Below are positions 8,266-15,305 of a stretch of DNA of 15,773 nt, piece after piece. This DNA comes from Verrucomicrobiota bacterium (GTDB taxonomy: Bacteria > Verrucomicrobiota > Verrucomicrobiia > Limisphaerales > AV2). Position numbers and translations under genes: made by a program. Location: positions 1 through 15,773 of the forward strand of contig QHPA01000074.1 in assembly GCA_003218935.1 (NCBI GenBank), read 5' to 3'. The stretch's first letter is position 1; each line of letters begins with the position of its first letter. The notes beneath the pieces were generated by a model that did not search any database, was not told the origin of the DNA, and saw nothing but the letters and a program-made list of their open reading frames with translations.

Positions 8266-8892
8266 TTACTTCGCCGAATCAGCCGGGACGATTTTGACGC
8301 TCTCGATACCGATGCGTTTATCCGGCCTGTCCGGAGGATGTGTCTTCGTGGTCGCTATCTTTTCCAACACATCATCGCCTTTGAGCAACTTGCCAAACGC
8401 GGTGTACTTGTGATCCAGGGACGTCGGGTCGCCGTGGCAGATGAAAAACTGGCTGCCGGCGGAGTCCGGGTCTGAGGAGCGGGCCATCGAAACGACGCCC
8501 CGGACGTGGGAACGATCGTTGAACTCCGCCTTGATTTGGTAGCCTGGGCCGCCTTCACCCCAATGGTCTTCCTTGCTTGGATCTTTCGTAAGCGGATCAC
8601 CACCTTGAATCATGAAGCCCTTGATCACGCGATGAAAACAGGTGCCGTCGTAAAATCCCTTTTTGGCGAGCGTTTTGAAATTCTCGACCGTCTTGGGCGC
8701 GACTTCCGGCCAGAATTCAACCACCATCTCGCCTTCGGTCGTCTTGATCACGGCCACTTCTTTGGCGTCGCTTTTGGCCGGTTTGGCTTCTTGATCGTCC
8801 TTCTTTTCAGCTTCTTTCTTGTCGGCCTGGCCGAAGGCGATTGCCAGGCCAAGCGAAAGAACCAGCACGCAACTGAACCAGAATTTCTTCAT
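8266..8892 (-). CDS. Cyclophilin-type peptidyl-prolyl isomerase, exported
   Basis: A 208-residue paralog of the gene downstream. It begins with a signal peptide (MKKFWFSCVLVLSLGLAIAF, cleavage probably near AIA or shortly after), then a Lys/Glu/Asp-rich linker of about 22 residues (QADKKEAEKKDDQEAK) and the cyclophilin domain from ~residue 45. Catalytic Arg (R88 in FHRVI), Phe (F93) and Gln (Q96 in IQGGDP) are kept; the CypA tryptophan position is Ser (PTSLDHK). It probably acts as a periplasmic PPIase for folding of exported proteins. The ATG at 8892 is 36 bp after ygfZ. Protein and DNA similarity to its neighbour (for example a shared ~22-bp block at the GSQFFIC codons) indicates tandem duplication. 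Confidence 0.9.
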   Translation of the reverse strand: MKKFWFSCVLVLSLGLAIAFGQADKKEAEKKDDQEAKPAKSDAKEVAVIKTTEGEMVVEFWPEVAPKTVENFKTLAKKGFYDGTCFHRVIKGFMIQGGDPLTKDPSKEDHWGEGGPGYQIKAEFNDRSHVRGVVSMARSSDPDSAGSQFFICHGDPTSLDHKYTAFGKLLKGDDVLEKIATTKTHPPDRPDKRIGIESVKIVPADSAK

Positions 8893-8928
8893 CGGCTTGG
8901 TGTGCCACGAAGCTGCGGCGTTGTCACG

Positions 8929-10125
8929 CTAAGATTTTTTGAACGGCAACTCCACGATGCGCGCCGGACTTTCGCCTTCGGTGGTGCGCAATGTCAGTTC
9001 CGTGCCGATCCCATTGTGCTCGCGACGGACGTAAGCGAGGGCGACATTGGACCTCAACGTCGGCGAAGCCAGAGCGCTGGTGACAAAACCGATCTCTTTA
9101 TCTCCCCGGTAAAGCTTATCGCCCTTTTGCGGCAAAACTTTTATTGAATCCGCGAGCCGCAGCCCGCGCAGCGCTTTGGCCACCTGGCCGTAAGTGCGAA
9201 CGCGGGCGATGACTTCCTGGCCGATGTAGCAACCTTTGGTATAACTGACCGCCCGCCCTTCGATGCCGGCTTCCGGAGGAAGATTGGTTTCGTCCATATC
9301 GACACCAAACCGCGGAGTGCCGGCCTCGAGGCGCGCCATCTCCAAGGCCTGCCAACCGCACGCGCGACCGCCAACCGCCTTCGCCGCAGTGATGAGTTTG
9401 TCAGTGACTGGACCGAGCGCCGCGGTTGGCACGAACAAGTCGAAACCTGCGGAACCGATTCGCGGCAAATTCATCAAATAAATTTCGCCGAGTGTGGGAG
9501 CTTTGAAGGAGACAAAATTCGCAGGCCTGGTCGGCGGTTGAACGAACCCGGCCCCAGCCGTTCCAAAGGCGGGGAGCGGCGTCGCGCCCGCAGTTGGCTC
9601 GTTCCCCTCTTGGGAGGGGTCAGGGGTGGATTTGCCGGCCGACCTCTCGAAACCCAAAGCGCGCATCACCTCGCTCGCCTCCGGTCCCTGAACACTGATC
9701 AAACCGTAATGCGCCGCCACGTCCACCACCTGCACGTCGTCGGCAATGATGTATTTCTCGAGCCGTTGAACGACTGTTGCGCCGTAACCTGGCTCGAAGT
9801 CGAGCAGGATTTCGTCTTCCAGAATGTAAATGTTCAGGTCGCTCTGCATCCTGCCCTTGGCGTTGACCAGCGCGGCATAACAGCCTTCACCCGTTTTCAG
9901 GTCCTTCACATTGTTGGTGACCTGCCCGTTCAGGAATTTCTGGCGGTCGGCGCCGGTCAGGCAAAGGCGCGAACGGAAGCTCAAATCAAGAACACCCGCC
10001 CTCTCGCGCAGCGCCGCGTGTTCGCTTGGCGGGTCGCCGTAGTGCTCGACGACCTCCATGCCGTTCAGCTCCGTGAAGCGCGCGTTCAGACGTTGATGAA
10101 ACTCTCGGATTGCCAACACGCTCAT
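8929..10125 (-). CDS. ygfZ: YgfZ/GcvT-like folate-binding protein with an internal insertion
   Basis: A 398-residue member of the YgfZ group (aminomethyltransferase fold), tetrahydrofolate-binding proteins that support Fe-S cluster assembly or repair. Signatures: LDLSFRSRLCLTGADRQKFL near 46-65, NGQVTNNV, ALVNAKGRMQSDL, and the hallmark KGCYIGQEV with its conserved cysteine at about 297-305, followed by the C-terminal barrel. Residues ~161-201 are an unusual Pro/Gly/Ala-rich stretch (STPDPSQEGNEPTAGATPLP) that relatives I recall do not have; its DNA contains a REP-like palindrome. The frame runs upstream to 10356 but that part is repeat sequence, so the ATG at 10125 (MSVLAIREFHQ) is preferred. 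It lies upstream of the cyclophilins with short spacing. Confidence 0.88.
   Translation of the reverse strand: MSVLAIREFHQRLNARFTELNGMEVVEHYGDPPSEHAALRERAGVLDLSFRSRLCLTGADRQKFLNGQVTNNVKDLKTGEGCYAALVNAKGRMQSDLNIYILEDEILLDFEPGYGATVVQRLEKYIIADDVQVVDVAAHYGLISVQGPEASEVMRALGFERSAGKSTPDPSQEGNEPTAGATPLPAFGTAGAGFVQPPTRPANFVSFKAPTLGEIYLMNLPRIGSAGFDLFVPTAALGPVTDKLITAAKAVGGRACGWQALEMARLEAGTPRFGVDMDETNLPPEAGIEGRAVSYTKGCYIGQEVIARVRTYGQVAKALRGLRLADSIKVLPQKGDKLYRGDKEIGFVTSALASPTLRSNVALAYVRREHNGIGTELTLRTTEGESPARIVELPFKKS
9523..9645. repeat. In-frame insertion in ygfZ carrying a palindromic repeat
   Basis: This stretch encodes the extra linker at residues 161-201 of YgfZ. It includes CCCCTCTTGGGAGGGG (9604-9619, arms CCCCTC/GAGGGG) followed by TCAGGGGTGG, a pattern like interspersed intergenic palindromes of GC-rich bacteria. 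Its exact borders cannot be set without homologs. Confidence 0.5.
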
Positions 10126-10186
10126 GTCGTCATCATAGCGCAGATCCGTAATGGAGTGGAGGAAAATGCTTGGTCGTTTGCTCCCA

Positions 10187-10225
10187 TTCGATGTTGGGCG
10201 TTGGATGTTCGATGTTGGATGTTCG
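10187..10225. repeat. Tandem heptamer repeat (TTGGATG type), five units
   Basis: TTCGATG, TTGGGCG, TTGGATG, TTCGATG, TTGGATG, then TTCG: five full units in exact 7-bp period. No inverse arm is nearby. On the minus strand it reads as spurious peptide of the type HPTSNIQRPTSN. The 10-mer GGTTCATGGG (10230-10239) follows. It lies in the ygfZ upstream region. Confidence 0.8.
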
Positions 10226-10283
10226 TCCGGGTTCATGGGAAGCCTCCTTTCGCTTTTGCGCACGCATCGGGACCATAAACCAT

Positions 10284-10347
10284 CCCCCTCACCCGCCCTT
10301 CGGGCACCCTCTCCCCCTCCGAGGGGGAGAGGGACGGGGTGAGGGGG
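10284..10347. repeat. REP-like nested palindrome in the 10126-10420 intergenic region
   Basis: Outer arms CCCCCTCACCC and GGGGTGAGGGGG enclose a small hairpin GCCC-TT-GGGC and an inner pair ACCCTCTCCCCCTC / GAGGGGGAGAGGG. As RNA it would be a very stable structure and could terminate transcription from the SIS gene (stop at 10421) or protect a 3' end. GGTTCATGGG follows at 10350-10359. Apart from this, the heptamer repeat and that 10-mer, the 295-bp gap shows nothing recognisable. Confidence 0.75.
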
Positions 10348-10420
10348 GCGGTTCATGGGTGCTGGAGGGCTTCCGCGATGGTGGTGGTATCCAGATGCGC
10401 CCTCCTTCAGGCGCCTCGCC

Positions 10421-11155
10421 TCAAAGGTGCCTTATTCGGCTGGCGTATTTCTGTAGAAGTTTGCCGTTGTGGTCATCGCCGTCCGTGTTGCTGCTGATGT
10501 AAATCTCCGGCGCGACCCCGCGGGCCAGCGCGTTTTCGATCCCCTGAACGACGATCGCGTTCACAATGAACGCGCCGGTGATGGACGAAGTCGGCCCGAT
10601 AGCCGACGGCATTCCGGCCAGCTTGACGCAAGCGTCGCCTTCCACGCCGCAGTTGTCGATGACCAGGTCGCCGACGTCCGCCAGTTTCTTTCCTGACGAC
10701 TGACGCGACGGCCACGCCCGCGTGTGCGCGAGGTTGGTGATGACGATGACTTTCATCCCCCGCTCGCGTCCCAGGAACGCCAGCTCAACCGGAACTGCGT
10801 TTCTGCCGGAATTTGAGGCGACGATCAGCACGTCACCGCGCTCGACCGGGTAGAGCTTCAGCAGCCCGGCGGCGTAGCCTTCCTGGCGTTCAAGGTAAGT
10901 TGCCTCGATGGCTTCCTTGTGCAACATGAGGCGGTCGTCGAGGAGGGGCACGGCGTGGGCGAGACCGCCAGCGCGATAAAAAATTTCCTCGGCCAACAGG
11001 TGCGAATGGCCGGTGCCGAAGGCGTAGAGCCAGTGGTCTTTCGCCAGCGCTTCGCCGAGCCACGCGGCAGCCTGCTCAATCGCGGCGCGCTGAGTCCTAT
11101 AAACTTTCTCCAATTGCTCATGCGCGGCGGCGTAATATTTCTCGTAAGAGTTCAT
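10421..11155 (-). CDS. SIS-domain sugar-phosphate protein (UPF0309-like)
   Basis: A 244-residue SIS (sugar isomerase) domain protein. It opens MNSYEKYYAAAHEQLEKVYR, a helical start typical of UPF0309/MurQ-like SIS proteins, then AFGTGHSHLLAEEIFYRAGG (about 46-65) and VLIVASNSGRNAVPVELAFL, the Ser-rich phosphosugar-binding loop. Further SIS features are VIVITNLAHTRAWPSRQSSG and a Gly/Ser-rich loop near GPTSSITGAF. SIS proteins of this kind bind or isomerise phosphorylated amino sugars, or act as etherases. Position directly after a GlcNAc/GlcN-type kinase suggests the kinase product as substrate; the actual reaction is unknown. The ATG at 11155 is chosen; the next codon upstream is TTG. It is the last gene of the amino-sugar cluster. 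Confidence 0.82.
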   Translation of the reverse strand: MNSYEKYYAAAHEQLEKVYRTQRAAIEQAAAWLGEALAKDHWLYAFGTGHSHLLAEEIFYRAGGLAHAVPLLDDRLMLHKEAIEATYLERQEGYAAGLLKLYPVERGDVLIVASNSGRNAVPVELAFLGRERGMKVIVITNLAHTRAWPSRQSSGKKLADVGDLVIDNCGVEGDACVKLAGMPSAIGPTSSITGAFIVNAIVVQGIENALARGVAPEIYISSNTDGDDHNGKLLQKYASRIRHL

Positions 11156-11211
11156 CAAAATGCGGTCGGTGCATCCTGCGCGCGAGCGCCAATTTGCCAG
11201 CTTCGCGGGAC

Positions 11212-11253
11212 GCGAGGCAAGGATACCTCGCCACTGGCAGGCTGGAAGCCTGC
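11212..11253. repeat. REP-like double hairpin between the kinase and SIS genes
   Basis: Two adjacent inverted repeats: GCGAGG...CCTCGC (11212-11231, 8-bp loop) and GCAGGCT-gga-AGCCTGC (11237-11253). The sequence type GCAGGCTTCCAGCCTGC is a familiar interspersed repeat in GC-rich environmental bacteria. The kinase TAG stop (11255-11257) lies immediately beside it. Confidence 0.65.
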
Positions 11254-11254
11254 G

Positions 11255-12181
11255 CTACGTCTGCTCAAGCAGCTGGACACTCTCAAGCGAACAGGATTGC
11301 GCGAGGTTCGCAGCAAGCCGGTGGGTTGTCTCAACACCGGCATCCCTCAGTGCTATCGCCGCAGCGCCACCCACCGGGGGCAACCTCGGCTGCTCGATGC
11401 GGACCAGGCACGACTTTTTCAAGGCAGCCACAAGGCTGCCACGAACCCAGGCGTTGTTCACCAGGACCCCGCCGACCAGATAAACCGGCAACGGTCGCGT
11501 TTTCAACCGCGCCAGCTCGACCGCAGCCAACGCCTGGGCCGCCAGTTCCCGACCGGCGCGCCGACACGTCTCGCGGAAAACGACATCATGGCGCGCGGCG
11601 TTTTGCGCAAGGTGGCCGGCCAGCGCGGCGATGAGGCGGCTCAGGCTCGTTTCGCGACCGCGTTCCTCCTCGGCTGCGATGGCGGCTTTCACTGATTCCA
11701 GTGCAATCCAGTAAGCGCTGCCGGCGTCGCCGAGAATCGGGCCCCAGCCACCGACTCTGGCACATTTTCCGGCTTCGTTTTGCGCCAGCACAATCGAGCC
11801 GGTGCCGGAGATGATGACCACTCCTGGTTCACCCAGCGTCGCACCGAAGCAAGCCGTCTGACAATCGCTGACGACGCGCGTTCGCGCCAACGGCAAAATG
11901 CCGTGACACAACCTTTCCTTCTCGGTTTTGCTTGCGCTGGAAAACAGCGCGGCGCAACCGACGACGGCCCTTTTGCACCGGCTGTCCGGCGGGAGTTGCC
12001 GTTCGAGCGAGCGGACCAACATCTTCAAGTTACGACGCGCGGCGGGCAGGCCTGAGCTGAAGAAATTCAGCGAACCCGCTCTGGCCGTGGCCAGCAGCTT
12101 GCCAGAGGAATCAACGGCGACTGCGAAACTGTGCGTGCCGCCGCCGTCAATGCCGATAAAGACAGATGTGTTATGACTCAC
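11255..12181 (-). CDS. BadF/BadG-family ATPase, probable N-acetylglucosamine or glucosamine kinase
   Basis: A 308-residue sugar kinase of the ASKHA fold. The N-terminal phosphate-1 loop is FIGIDGGGTHSFAVAVD (residues 8-24), then VVGCAALFSS, the putative catalytic Asp in VVSDCQTACFGA (D106), phosphate-2 VVIISGTGSIVLA (~121-133) and the family motif GGWGPILGDAGSAYWIA. A C-terminal GGVLVNNAWVRGSL completes the fold. This combination is shared by NAGK-type GlcNAc kinases and glucosamine kinases; the neighbourhood (GH84, SIS, sugar ABC permeases) favours an amino sugar. The start GTG at 12181 lies just before the conserved domain with GAGG adjacent. Frames further upstream run into the 73-bp palindrome and GNAT gene and are rejected. 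The 3' end borders a REP-like repeat. Confidence 0.82.
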   Translation of the reverse strand: MSHNTSVFIGIDGGGTHSFAVAVDSSGKLLATARAGSLNFFSSGLPAARRNLKMLVRSLERQLPPDSRCKRAVVGCAALFSSASKTEKERLCHGILPLARTRVVSDCQTACFGATLGEPGVVIISGTGSIVLAQNEAGKCARVGGWGPILGDAGSAYWIALESVKAAIAAEEERGRETSLSRLIAALAGHLAQNAARHDVVFRETCRRAGRELAAQALAAVELARLKTRPLPVYLVGGVLVNNAWVRGSLVAALKKSCLVRIEQPRLPPVGGAAAIALRDAGVETTHRLAANLAQSCSLESVQLLEQT

Positions 12182-12225
12182 CTCAGTAAAAAGAATCTCG
12201 GTCCGAAATTCCTCTCTGTGAACCA

Positions 12226-12298
12226 GGTGGGGCGAGACTCCGTCGAGCCCTGATTTCTGTCCATTGGAGATCAGGGCTCGACGGAGTCTCGCCCCACC
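12226..12298. repeat. 73-bp palindromic element, copy 1
   Basis: Two 29-bp arms that are perfect inverse complements (12226-12254 and 12270-12298), beginning GGTGGGGCGAGACTCCGTCG, surround a 15-bp centre TTCTGTCCATTGGAG. It lies in the 160-bp gap between the GNAT and kinase genes and would form a very strong RNA hairpin in the operon transcript. A second copy is at 15199-15271. No transposase is present; it is REP- or MITE-like. Confidence 0.9.
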
Positions 12299-12341
12299 GG
12301 TCATGGTCCCGATGCGCGCCCCACCATTTCCGGACGCATTT

Positions 12342-12959
12342 TCACGGCAATCGTTTTCCCAGGTAAAGCACATCACCGGCGCGCGCAAGTTCGGTGAACC
12401 CGAGCTTTTTGTAAAATCGCTCCGCGCGCGCGTTCGTTGCGCCCATTCCAAGATGCACGCCGGGCGAACCTTTAGCCACCAGTTCCGCCAGGAACACGCG
12501 CACCATCGCCGCCCCCAACCCACGCCCTTGGGCGCGCGGCTGCAGGTCGATGTGCAGGTGCGACGGGTACTGATCGTGGGGTTCCGGCAGAAAAATGTCC
12601 GGGTGGTGATACTCGTGATAGATTTTTTGCGTCCGCGTCCACGTCGCCGGAGCGCCGGCCGGCTCCGGATGTTGCCTGCGGATTTCCGGGAGCCATTGAT
12701 TGACATACGCGTCGTAAAATTTCTTCGAGTCGAGCGCCCCCAGCACGTAACCGCAGACGCCCCGCGGGTCTTCCAGCACGAACGCCAGGTCCGGTTCCAG
12801 TTTCATGTACGGGCCGACAAAGATATGTCCGAGCGCTTTGGGGTCGTCGAAAAACCGCGTGGCATCATTCCCGTTGTCGCCGGTGCGCAGGCAGACCTCG
12901 TAAACCGCCGCTTCGTCACGCGGCTCGCAGAGGCGAATCTTAAAGGGCGCGGGGACCAT
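12342..12959 (-). CDS. GNAT acetyltransferase, OGA HAT-domain homolog
   Basis: A 205-residue GNAT protein: FKIRLCEPRDEAAVYEVCLR, then LAFVLEDPRGVCGYVLGALD (59-78), and the acetyl-CoA pyrophosphate loop RAQGRGLGA (142-150). The C-terminal part has NARAERFYKKLGF and ends YLGKRLP. From memory, human OGA's C-terminal HAT-like domain reads in parallel: IRPYFPKDEASVYKIC, CFVLEDEDGICGYALGTVD, then FYSKLG and VILGRSL. The human domain has lost the acetyl-CoA loop, whereas this protein keeps R-x-x-G-x-G. There is no signal peptide. The ATG at 12959 lies 20 bp inside the end of the GH84 gene, so translation is probably coupled. The frame runs further upstream to 13088 but that part is antisense to nothing and not protein-like. 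Whether it acetylates a sugar, a protein or nothing is unknown. Confidence 0.85.
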   Translation of the reverse strand: MVPAPFKIRLCEPRDEAAVYEVCLRTGDNGNDATRFFDDPKALGHIFVGPYMKLEPDLAFVLEDPRGVCGYVLGALDSKKFYDAYVNQWLPEIRRQHPEPAGAPATWTRTQKIYHEYHHPDIFLPEPHDQYPSHLHIDLQPRAQGRGLGAAMVRVFLAELVAKGSPGVHLGMGATNARAERFYKKLGFTELARAGDVLYLGKRLP

Positions 12960-14331
12960 CGGGCTTGTGTCGCACAGCGGCTGGAGTCCGGGCACGGAAC
13001 CGTCCGTTCTCGTCCATCGGCAGGAATCGTTGCAAGTCAGCGACCAGTCCGCCGCGATAAATTTTCTGGCGATGGTCTGGTGAAGCAAACGTTTGTTCAG
13101 GGCCCGGCCTGGCCTTGAGCCAATGGAGATATTTTCGCAACAGGACGGCCTCCTCCTTCAGCTCCCAAACGTGCCGGTAAAGCGCGTAAAGCAATTCACG
13201 GTTTCTCAGCGCGGCAATCTTTTCAAACAGGTCCAAAATGTCGGAACATTTCTTTTCAAAGCGCCGGCCGATGACGCCCCACTTCCTCGGCGGCATACGC
13301 AGCAGGAACCGGAAATCTTCGATGAACGTTTCGGCGCAACGCCCGTGCTGAAAAGGCAAATGGAAGCAGTCGCACAGAAACTCCAGTTCACCCGGCGAAA
13401 TCCGGCGTCCATGATGCGCCTTCCACTGAAGCAACCAGTGTCTCAATGCGGTGTGATAAGCCTGCTGTGCGTTCCAATGTCCTTTGGCCTGCGCGAACAT
13501 CGCCAGTGTGCGGAGCGGAATATAGTTCGCCTCAAACTCGCAGTTCGGATTGCTCAGGATGCCGGCGACTTCGTTGCGCAGTTCCAGCGGACGCCCGGCA
13601 TACGGGCCGAGGTAAATGCGGCGAAGGTCGTAGTCATTGGCATGAAGGTTGTCCCAGAGGAGCGGCTTGCGCCGGAGAACTCGCTGTAACTCGCGAATCG
13701 ATTCCGCCGGGATGGTCTCAGAGACTATTTCCGGTCCGGTCCAGAAAATCCCGATGGACGAGTCCAGGAGCTTTCCCAACCGTTTCAGGTAATCGGAATG
13801 CCTGACCGGACCTGACATCCGCTCGCAGTAGTGGGTCGGACAAAAGAGCAAAGTCGCGTCGGGAGCCTGGTCGCGGAGATGTTTCAGGAAATCATTGGCA
13901 ACGACGCTCTGCGCATCCGCGAGAGAGTTGAACATCCTGGAGTCTTCTTTCGAGAGGACCGGCTGAATGTCATCGAAAGTGATGGCGAAATGGGTGCAGC
14001 CGAGCCTCAGCAATTGGCTGGCCTTTCTCCGCAAGCGCGCCATGTCCTTCCTGCTCGAATAGGAGAGGTCCAGGCCAGGCGCAACGGCACAAACGAAATT
14101 CAGACCTTTGCCCCGGCAATGGCGAATCAAGGTCTTCAGCTCGGCCGCATCGCTTTCCGCGTAAAGCTCGCGCCAGAGCAGCCGATGTTTCAGGTCGTCT
14201 TTGGGGGCGTAGAGGTAGGTGTTCATGCCCCACGACTGCATCCACGCGAAGAGTTGTCCGCGTTGCGCAGCGGACCACGGGCGTCCGTAGAAGCCTTCCA
14301 CGACGCCGCAGATAAACGGGTTTGCGCCCAT
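12940..14331 (-). CDS. GH84 beta-N-acetylglucosaminidase, eukaryotic O-GlcNAcase-like
   Basis: A 463-residue glycoside hydrolase 84 enzyme, which removes beta-linked GlcNAc by substrate-assisted catalysis. It begins immediately at the catalytic barrel (FICGVVEGFYGRPW, residues 6-19), with NTYLYAPKDDLKHR (Lys44), the catalytic pair FDDI (D120, D121), FCPTHYC (Y168), LLWDNLHANDYD (W226, N228, D233) and NPNCEFEAN (N261). All correspond to human OGA active-site residues (K98, D174/D175, Y219, W278, N280, D285, N313). The C-terminal ~170 residues match the human stalk: LPFQHG, ALYRHVWELKEE, IYRGGLVADLQRFLPMD. It ends where human OGA passes into its HAT domain; that domain is the next, overlapping gene. 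No signal peptide, so cytoplasmic. The ATG is 3 bp after the permease stop. Confidence 0.93.
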   Translation of the reverse strand: MGANPFICGVVEGFYGRPWSAAQRGQLFAWMQSWGMNTYLYAPKDDLKHRLLWRELYAESDAAELKTLIRHCRGKGLNFVCAVAPGLDLSYSSRKDMARLRRKASQLLRLGCTHFAITFDDIQPVLSKEDSRMFNSLADAQSVVANDFLKHLRDQAPDATLLFCPTHYCERMSGPVRHSDYLKRLGKLLDSSIGIFWTGPEIVSETIPAESIRELQRVLRRKPLLWDNLHANDYDLRRIYLGPYAGRPLELRNEVAGILSNPNCEFEANYIPLRTLAMFAQAKGHWNAQQAYHTALRHWLLQWKAHHGRRISPGELEFLCDCFHLPFQHGRCAETFIEDFRFLLRMPPRKWGVIGRRFEKKCSDILDLFEKIAALRNRELLYALYRHVWELKEEAVLLRKYLHWLKARPGPEQTFASPDHRQKIYRGGLVADLQRFLPMDENGRFRARTPAAVRHKPDGPRAL

Positions 14332-14334
14332 AAA

Positions 14335-15156
14335 TCATTTCACTGCGCCGGCAATCACGCCCCGAATGACGTGTTTGTTAAAAATGGCATAGACGAGCAG
14401 CGTTGGCACGGAAATCAGCGAGAGGCCCGCGAGCAGCGCCGGGTAATCCGTGTTGTGCGCCTGCTCAAAGGCAATCATTCCGACCGGCAACGTTTTCATC
14501 GCCGGGTCCACGATGAACAGCATCGCCATCAGGAATTCGTTCCACGTGTTGAGGCAGGTGATGGCCACGATTGTCGCCACGGCCGGTCTGGCGACCGGCA
14601 GCAGGATACTGAAGTAAAACCGCGCGGTGCGAACGCCGTCGAGCTTCGCCGCTTCCTCGAGTTCTGCCGGCAACGAAACGAAAAAAGCCGCGAACAACAG
14701 AATCGCCACCGGCAGATTTTGCGCGGTGTAGGGCAGAATCAACGCCCAGAGACTGTCGTGAACGCCGAGCGTCTCCAGCAAACCCGTCAACGGAATGAGG
14801 TAGGACTGCACCGGCAGGATCATGCCGATAAAAAACAGGGCGAGCCAGAATTTGCGGAGCGGGAACCGCGCCTTGCTCAACGCGAATCCGGCCCATGCCC
14901 CGAAGCACACGACTGCCGCCGCGCTGAGTCCGGTGACCCAAAGCGAGTTGATGAAGTAAGCGCCCATGTGGCCCTGGCGGACGGCTTTCTGGTAATTCAC
15001 GAGGCTGATTTGATGCGGCAAGGAAAAAGGATGGCCGAAGATTTCGACGTTCGACGATTTGAAGCTGCTCAGCGCCATCCAGAGCATCGGATAAAGAAAC
15101 AGCAGCGCGAGCAGCGCCCACGCAACGGTCTTGAAACAGGTACCTGGCCGGCTCAT
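14335..15156 (-). CDS. ABC sugar transporter permease, MalG-type
   Basis: A 273-residue inner-membrane permease of the CUT1 carbohydrate ABC family. It starts MSRPGTCFKTVAWALLALLF, LYPMLWMALSSFKS, with about six membrane segments. The cytoplasmic EAA loop ELEEAAKLDGVRTARFYFSI, LLPVARP is intact and contacts the ATPase; the C-terminus is HVIRGVIAGAVK, as usual for MalG/AraQ proteins. The start ATG at 15156 overlaps the stop of a 50-codon ORF (ATGA). The frame is also open upstream to 15234, through the palindrome, and is rejected there. Only 3 bp separate it from the GH84 gene, so uptake and hydrolysis are likely co-expressed. The ATPase and solute-binding protein are not in the window. Substrate inferred: a GlcNAc-containing glycan or conjugate. 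Confidence 0.9.
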   Translation of the reverse strand: MSRPGTCFKTVAWALLALLFLYPMLWMALSSFKSSNVEIFGHPFSLPHQISLVNYQKAVRQGHMGAYFINSLWVTGLSAAAVVCFGAWAGFALSKARFPLRKFWLALFFIGMILPVQSYLIPLTGLLETLGVHDSLWALILPYTAQNLPVAILLFAAFFVSLPAELEEAAKLDGVRTARFYFSILLPVARPAVATIVAITCLNTWNEFLMAMLFIVDPAMKTLPVGMIAFEQAHNTDYPALLAGLSLISVPTLLVYAIFNKHVIRGVIAGAVK

Positions 15157-15305
15157 CTTTTGACCCTCGTTGACACCCGCCCCCTTTCCCATGAACCGGG
15201 TGGGGCGAGACTCCGTCGAGCCCTGATCTCCCACGGGTAGAAATCAGTGCTCGACGGAGTCTCGCCCCACCGTTGAAGCGCGCGGGACCATTCTTCGCGC
15301 TTCAT
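15153..15305 (-). CDS. 50-codon ORF bridging the two permease genes, created or extended by the palindrome
   Basis: The ATG (15303-15305) overlaps the first permease's stop in ATGA, and its own TGA (15153-15155) overlaps the second permease's ATG, again as ATGA. The peptide begins MKREEWSRALQRW and then encodes the 73-bp palindrome (GETPSSTDFYPWEIRARR, SLAPPGSW) before ending RGRVSTRVKR. It is probably not a functional protein. It may be the former N-terminus of permease 2, cut off by the repeat, and may let ribosomes reach the second permease by reinitiation. Removing 74 bp (the palindrome plus one base) would join MKREEWSRALQ in frame with the permease. Existence of the frame is certain; meaning is inference. 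Confidence 0.35.
   Translation of the reverse strand: MKREEWSRALQRWGETPSSTDFYPWEIRARRSLAPPGSWERGRVSTRVKR
15199..15271. repeat. 73-bp palindromic element, copy 2
   Basis: Arms 15199-15227 and 15243-15271 are 29 bp with one mismatch, around the centre CTCCCACGGGTAGAA. The centre is the inverse complement relative of copy 1's centre (TTCTACCCGTGGGAG against TTCTGTCCATTGGAG), so the two centres lie in opposite orientation while the arms and the flanking TGAACC side keep the same one. It sits between the two permease genes. Confidence 0.9.

Follow-up and report, generated by a model that had tools for sequence, protein, structure and literature searches.

An OGA-type GH84 glycosidase and its overlapping acetyltransferase gene as a candidate amino-sugar salvage module in Verrucomicrobiota

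Results

The GH84 gene and its overlapping neighbour

Sugar-type ABC permeases, a GH84 beta-N-acetylglucosaminidase of the O-GlcNAcase (OGA) type, a GNAT acetyltransferase (AT), a sugar kinase and a SIS-domain protein are encoded in the window, the 15,773-nucleotide stretch of DNA analysed in this work (Table 1). The PF07555 catalytic domain of the GH84 protein scored 278 bits against a cut-off of 25, and pairwise alignment to OGA found its FDDI, YAPKDD, WDNxHANDYD and NPNCEFEAN motifs to be identical to those of 9ba8. We take these motifs to be the catalytic Asp-Asp and GlcNAc-pocket residues, with the role of each residue presumed. The stalk of OGA could also be aligned, with residues 313-442 corresponding to 341-484 of 9ba8, and the stalk chain 5uhk_B matching the protein at 1.4e-16. 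The original prediction of OGA catalytic and stalk regions with their key residues was therefore borne out: the protein matches the OGA catalytic core and stalk, and hydrolysis of O-GlcNAc is predicted. As the catalytic domain begins at approximately residue 6, there is no room for a signal peptide.

Table 1. Features of the window, with the basis of each assignment or a remark
Feature	Position	Strand	Basis or remark
SIS-domain protein, above the NCBIfam NF002805 cut-off	10421..11158	-	profile scan
BadF/BadG-type sugar kinase	11255..12187	-	start codon approximate
Near-perfect palindrome, first copy	12219-12299		
GNAT acetyltransferase (AT), OgpAT / OGA-HAT subfamily, 205 aa	12342..12959	-	structure-database comparison, motif alignment
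GH84 beta-N-acetylglucosaminidase, OGA type: catalytic domain and helical stalk	12940..14331	-	profile and alignment
Sugar-type ABC transporter permease	14335..15234	-	profile scan
Near-perfect palindrome, second copy	15192-15272		
Sugar-type ABC transporter permease, cut by contig end	15302..15763	-	profile scan

The AT gene lies immediately downstream on the same strand, overlapping the GH84 gene by 20 bp. Its product retains H136 and the P-loop QGRGLG, equivalent to H135 and QGRGVG of OgpAT, and hence fits the acetyl-CoA P-loop pattern [QR]xxGx[GA] together with the His135 equivalent. Among the matches listed, OGA HAT domains were its nearest relatives, ahead of every other GNAT of solved structure. 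It is a member of the OgpAT / OGA-HAT subfamily, predicted from these motifs to bind acetyl-CoA. The identification of this gene as the HAT/GNAT domain of OGA, rather than a relative of unrelated acetyltransferases, was thereby upheld, as was the earlier reasoning from linker lengths.

An operon with putative amino-sugar genes

The closest solved relative of the kinase was the N-acetylmuramic acid/N-acetylglucosamine kinase 8zo3 (6.7e-25), and those of the SIS-domain protein were 3cvj and the UPF0309 protein SCO4393. The latter is NagS, described as a GlcNAc-6P dehydratase, with the reaction restricted by its authors to Streptomycetaceae (PMC12680351). Equivalents of six of the seven NagS substrate residues given there (Ser54, Arg64, Ser91, Glu94, Ser119, Ser121 and Asn228) are kept in the window protein, with Ser91 falling in a gap, by numbering counted by hand. 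Five genomes of the genus contained no NagA over the curated cut-off, with only sub-cut-off or fragmentary matches, and all five had a NagB-family protein above its cut-off. The sugar-cluster setting originally proposed was thus confirmed, and the combination of ABC permeases, GH84, AT, GlcNAc-kinase-like and NagS-family genes points to cytosolic salvage of GlcNAc glycosides.

Gaps of this operon also hold two copies of an 81-base near-perfect palindrome, with 32-nt arms and a 9-nt loop, which is a REP- or MITE-like repeat. The window contains four copies of its 20-base core, which is present in 7 of 157 loci, six of them from the window's genome or close relatives.

The OGA-like architecture and the lack of a signal peptide would also suit a reversible protein O-GlcNAc system, as reported for Thermobaculum terrenum (PMC4683255). 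However, the operon looks catabolic, and the OGT family (PF13844) was found in none of the five genus genomes, which are 75-95% complete (82% for the window's own), compared with 2 of 14 control genomes. This argues against a protein O-GlcNAc cycle, which was rejected as very improbable.

Adjacency and coupling of the two genes

Searching GTDB species genomes with an aligned set of GH84 relatives yielded 334 confirmed relatives, and the top 80 of these were retained. These loci are mostly from Verrucomicrobiota, with others from Devosia, Acidobacteriota, Neomarinimicrobiota and Trueperaceae, and the set is biased towards relatives of the query. An AT lay within 150 bp downstream of GH84 in 58 of the 80 loci (four of these ATs being cut by a contig end), and the two genes overlapped in 35 of the 58, 28 times by 4 bp, taking the start codon nearest to the projected start. 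Elsewhere in the set, the AT was at 164-862 bp in four loci, fused to GH84 in one and about 9 kb upstream in another; two contigs ended too early, and 14 loci were without an AT in the examined stretch. Yet in all 14 an AT was encoded elsewhere in the genome (one cut by a contig end and one broken across frames), in the case of L019 further along the same contig. Hence the GH84-AT partnership is near-obligate within the 80-locus set.

The window pair is therefore not an unusual split, as had been suggested: that description was rejected, because separate adjacent genes prevail (58 of 80) and are already in print. A two-gene operon in which the AT gene directly follows that for OGA was described in Oceanicola granulosus in 2013 (PMC3814719). 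As in the window, OgOGA is a GH84 protein with an OGA-like extension, followed by a GNAT (OgpAT) resembling the C-terminal domain of human OGA and carrying the same P-loop and base His. The window genes differ in overlapping by 20 bp, in their setting amid ABC permeases, a kinase and a SIS protein, and in a host whose close relatives are Verrucomicrobiota. The arrangement is consequently of a known kind, with the window pair a further example; what is new is how prevalent it is, the near-obligate partnership in the examined set, the repeated fusion and the retention of an intact acetyl-CoA site by sponge OGA. For Streptomyces sviceus SsAT (4bmh), unlike the window AT, a GH84 neighbour is not mentioned in the portion of the source drawn on here (PMC3919268).

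Across the window's phylum, 47 of 288 genomes drawn had a GH84 match, with up to five candidates scored per genome. A match spanning the OGA-type length (1-454 of 457) came only from the window's own genome; the others covered 1-378 at most, and mostly lay inside longer proteins. Hence the OGA-type module is patchy in the phylum. On a plasmid of Deinococcus psychrotolerans, a GH84 gene of a related kind had no AT annotated within 7 kb. In L079, GH84 lies within a 907-codon open frame (8645-11365) that extends about 450 codons ahead of the catalytic domain.

Recurrent fusion

In L071 (Verrucomicrobiales), a single open frame of 652 codons encodes both domains, and kinase- and SIS-type genes come next. 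A protein search with this fusion, from which the best 120 of 1470 matches were examined, contained at least 26 bacterial fused rows with GH84 first, L071 included, 25 of 26 ranking above the first named eukaryote. Most were metagenome proteins, those with a taxon being L071, P0248 (Verrucomicrobiae) and P0254 (Luteitalea). The 637-aa P0292 has the reverse order, with AT first and GH84 second. The structure predicted for the natural fusion P0242 had a pTM of 0.67, with low-confidence linkers.

A quick tree of 104 rows combined the window, 59 separate-gene loci, 26 fused rows and 18 holozoan rows, without P0292, truncated or short sequences, P0242 (which duplicates L071) and the majority of animal rows. 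The holozoan rows formed one group (98*) beside the fused row P0263 (93). Fused rows occurred in many places, with starred branches forcing at least five changes between fused and separate states. Placing all fused rows in one clade was rejected (p-AU 8e-45, or 2e-7 without P0252), in a test with a simpler model on 43 rows picked after seeing the 104-row tree. Such repeated joining or splitting is an argument for the two proteins acting together.

Fused and separate versions are thus both present across relatives, with the separate adjacent form the prevailing one. The original prediction described the window pair as split, which could mean that it derives from a gene that was formerly fused. 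The scatter of fused forms through the tree accords with this, and the linker lengths do fit a single chain. However, an ancestral split is unproven: the two states are intermingled on the tree, most of the 80 loci have separate genes, and both gain and loss of fusion fit an unrooted tree, making this reading unlikely.

Genomic contexts beyond the window

Members of the kinase cluster occurred in 11 of the 80 GH84 loci, and of the NagS-family cluster in 13. Three further conserved genes precede GH84 in eight loci, including the window's relatives L002-L004 and three Devosia. The first of these, tested in the Devosia locus L063, encodes a sugar-type solute-binding protein, whose match to NgcE was weak and below cut-off; the other two are putative permeases.

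The AT was directly followed by a PTS IIC permease, assigned by likeness to a cluster, in 7 of the 14 genomes where it lies apart from GH84 (L101, L104, L105, L107, L108, L109 and L112), and the same permease cluster appeared in 22 of the 80 GH84 loci. Permeases of the GH84 loci L005, L049 and L080, and of L109, were above the lactose/cellobiose-family cut-off; that of L109 exceeded the TIGR00410 cut-off and had 3qnq as its only solved relative among the matches listed. Other ATs stand beside nagB, amidohydrolase, BadF kinase and ROK genes in Falsirhodobacter, or beside sugar ABC, ROK and BadF genes in Duffyella, with no GH84 annotated nearby in either, while the AT of Deinococcus gobiensis has genes for a BadF protein and an N-acetylmannosamine-6-phosphate epimerase within 4 kb. 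In the window itself, the kinase-like, NagS-family and permease neighbours suggest a role for the AT in amino-sugar metabolism.

Among genomes of the class of G306, a Devosia genome, 4 of 289 carried an AT (up to 10 candidates scored each), as did 51 of the 397 from the Devosia order (up to seven each). Of these 51, all except the four weakest were followed up, and 45 of the 47 were without GH84. Forty regions from this order were examined, which with three plasmid regions, one of them from an actinomycete, made 43. A solute-binding protein was directly beside the AT in 12 of the 43 and a ROK gene was present in 13 (one member of each being checked); an SDR gene was found in 12, and an amidohydrolase cluster took the place of sugar genes in eight. 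BadF kinase as a universal neighbour of the AT was rejected in this order, with no listed BadF within 10 kb. Plasmid contexts in Mesorhizobium, two Streptomyces and Azospirillum held nothing on amino sugars, and the plasmid regions L113, L114 and L116 were without annotation. In L118, L123, L125, L126, L129, L134, L135 and L136, a solo AT has an SDR or xylose-isomerase-like gene next to it, and the opposite strand bears an adjoining cluster with amidohydrolase and ABC ATPase genes, presumably resembling phosphonate (phn) genes. Hence the ATs of this order, being mostly without GH84 and in SDR or amidohydrolase contexts, suggest the wider family may use other acceptors.

Such varied solo contexts are in keeping with an AT that acetylates another small amine, either in detoxification or as a different sugar amine, with GH84 linked through shared regulation only, as is a DegT aminotransferase cluster in 16 of the 80 GH84 loci. 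This seems doubtful, given that each of the 14 genomes lacking a nearby AT keeps one elsewhere, and that fusion recurs. A protein acetyltransferase, regulating GH84 or the transporter through lysine or N-terminal acetylation, would equally explain the tight genomic partnership and repeated fusion expected of an enzyme and its regulator. Furthermore, the next closest GNATs by structure outside the subfamily were mostly protein N-terminal acetyltransferases of the Ard1/NatA/NatC type, among the matches listed. However, the many Devosia-order genomes with an AT and no GH84, the ATs that precede a permease when apart from GH84, and the narrow tunnel over the presumed active site of OgpAT (PMC3814719) make a protein substrate improbable.

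Discussion

A proposed salvage mechanism

The homology, the intact cofactor and base residues, the coupling of the genes, their recurrent fusion and the operon neighbours all come from the data. From these, we propose that GH84 and AT form a cytosolic two-enzyme module of amino-sugar salvage, with the AT N-acetylating glucosamine or glucosaminides before GH84 cuts them, a model whose chances we judge to be about even. The identity of the acceptor, the physical contact of the proteins, the import of the substrate and the order of acetylation before cleavage are each inferred. Cleavage by GH84 OGAs is assisted by the 2-acetamido group of the substrate itself (PMC10636738). Hence an AT using acetyl-CoA to N-acetylate glucosamine, or the non-reducing end of glucosaminides, would supply this group, and could convert de-N-acetylated substrates that GH84 cannot cut into ones that it can. 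The GlcNAc set free would then pass to the adjoining kinase and into 6-phosphate metabolism. A need for both products together may explain the overlap of the genes, and their union in a single chain in several lineages, holozoa included. Another enzyme reportedly acetylates non-reducing-end GlcN ahead of cleavage by a GlcNAcase.

A functional parallel is the fungal enzyme RmNag, in which a GlcNAcase is coupled to a GNAT that acetylates (GlcN)2 prior to its cleavage, with the transferase being required; its authors compared this layout with that of OGA (PMC4680927). The likeness is one of working only, as RmNag has a GH3 rather than a GH84 domain, and its entry 4ZM6 did not appear in the AT search at E values of up to 0.1, nor among the best 50 matches by structure. 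The function of OgpAT itself was left open by Rao and colleagues, in the part of their report considered here (PMC3814719).

The acetyl-CoA site from bacteria to animals

Animal OGA shares with the window pair its catalytic core, stalk and HAT-like domain, and their order. It differs in forming a single chain whose stalk carries an insert, and in a HAT that did not bind acetyl-CoA in the seven animals assayed in a 2025 study: human, mouse, chicken, zebrafish, fly, worm and Trichoplax (PMC12494797). That study calls the eukaryotic OGA HAT unable to bind acetyl-CoA, and the human domain was previously reported not to bind it (PMC3814719). By contrast, OgpAT was solved with acetyl-CoA, with a Kd of 8.7 uM in the text and 8.3 in the table of the original report (PMC3814719), and an affinity printed as 5 mM in the later one (PMC12494797).

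Both the OgpAT-type His and the P-loop were present in 27 of 27 fused rows and in 60 of the 63 rows with separate genes (gaps in the remaining three). Both were also kept in all four sponge OGAs (Dysidea, Amphimedon, Sycon and Corticium), and in that of the choanoflagellate Salpingoeca rosetta, which however differs at three further contact positions. The other 63 animal-type rows among the matches listed had neither, and no cnidarian or ctenophore rows were among those matches. The intact cofactor site in sponge OGA therefore calls into question the claim that HAT domains of eukaryotic OGAs in general fail to bind acetyl-CoA; the main text of PMC12494797 contains none of the words sponge, Amphimedon, choanoflagellate, Salpingoeca and Porifera.

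For the animal HAT-like domain, the bacterial pairs, the recurrent fusion and the sponge site offer a testable origin and a testable acceptor, amino sugars. We tentatively suggest, at somewhat less than even chances, that the domain descends not from a histone acetyltransferase, but from a bacterial amino-sugar N-acetyltransferase serving the same GH84 enzyme. The protein would have been bifunctional in early holozoa, may still be active in sponges and perhaps choanoflagellates, and later became a pseudoenzyme. This idea was not found among the matches listed in searches of open-licence literature on sponge or choanoflagellate OGA with acetyltransferase, OGA with glucosamine N-acetyltransferase, and OGA origin.

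In individual sequences, chain 6r45 lacked the P-loop in an alignment to the window AT, and P0316, a eukaryote row grouping with S. rosetta, was without the His. Among the rows grouping with the sponges, P0267 was without the His, and P0264 kept both the His and the P-loop.
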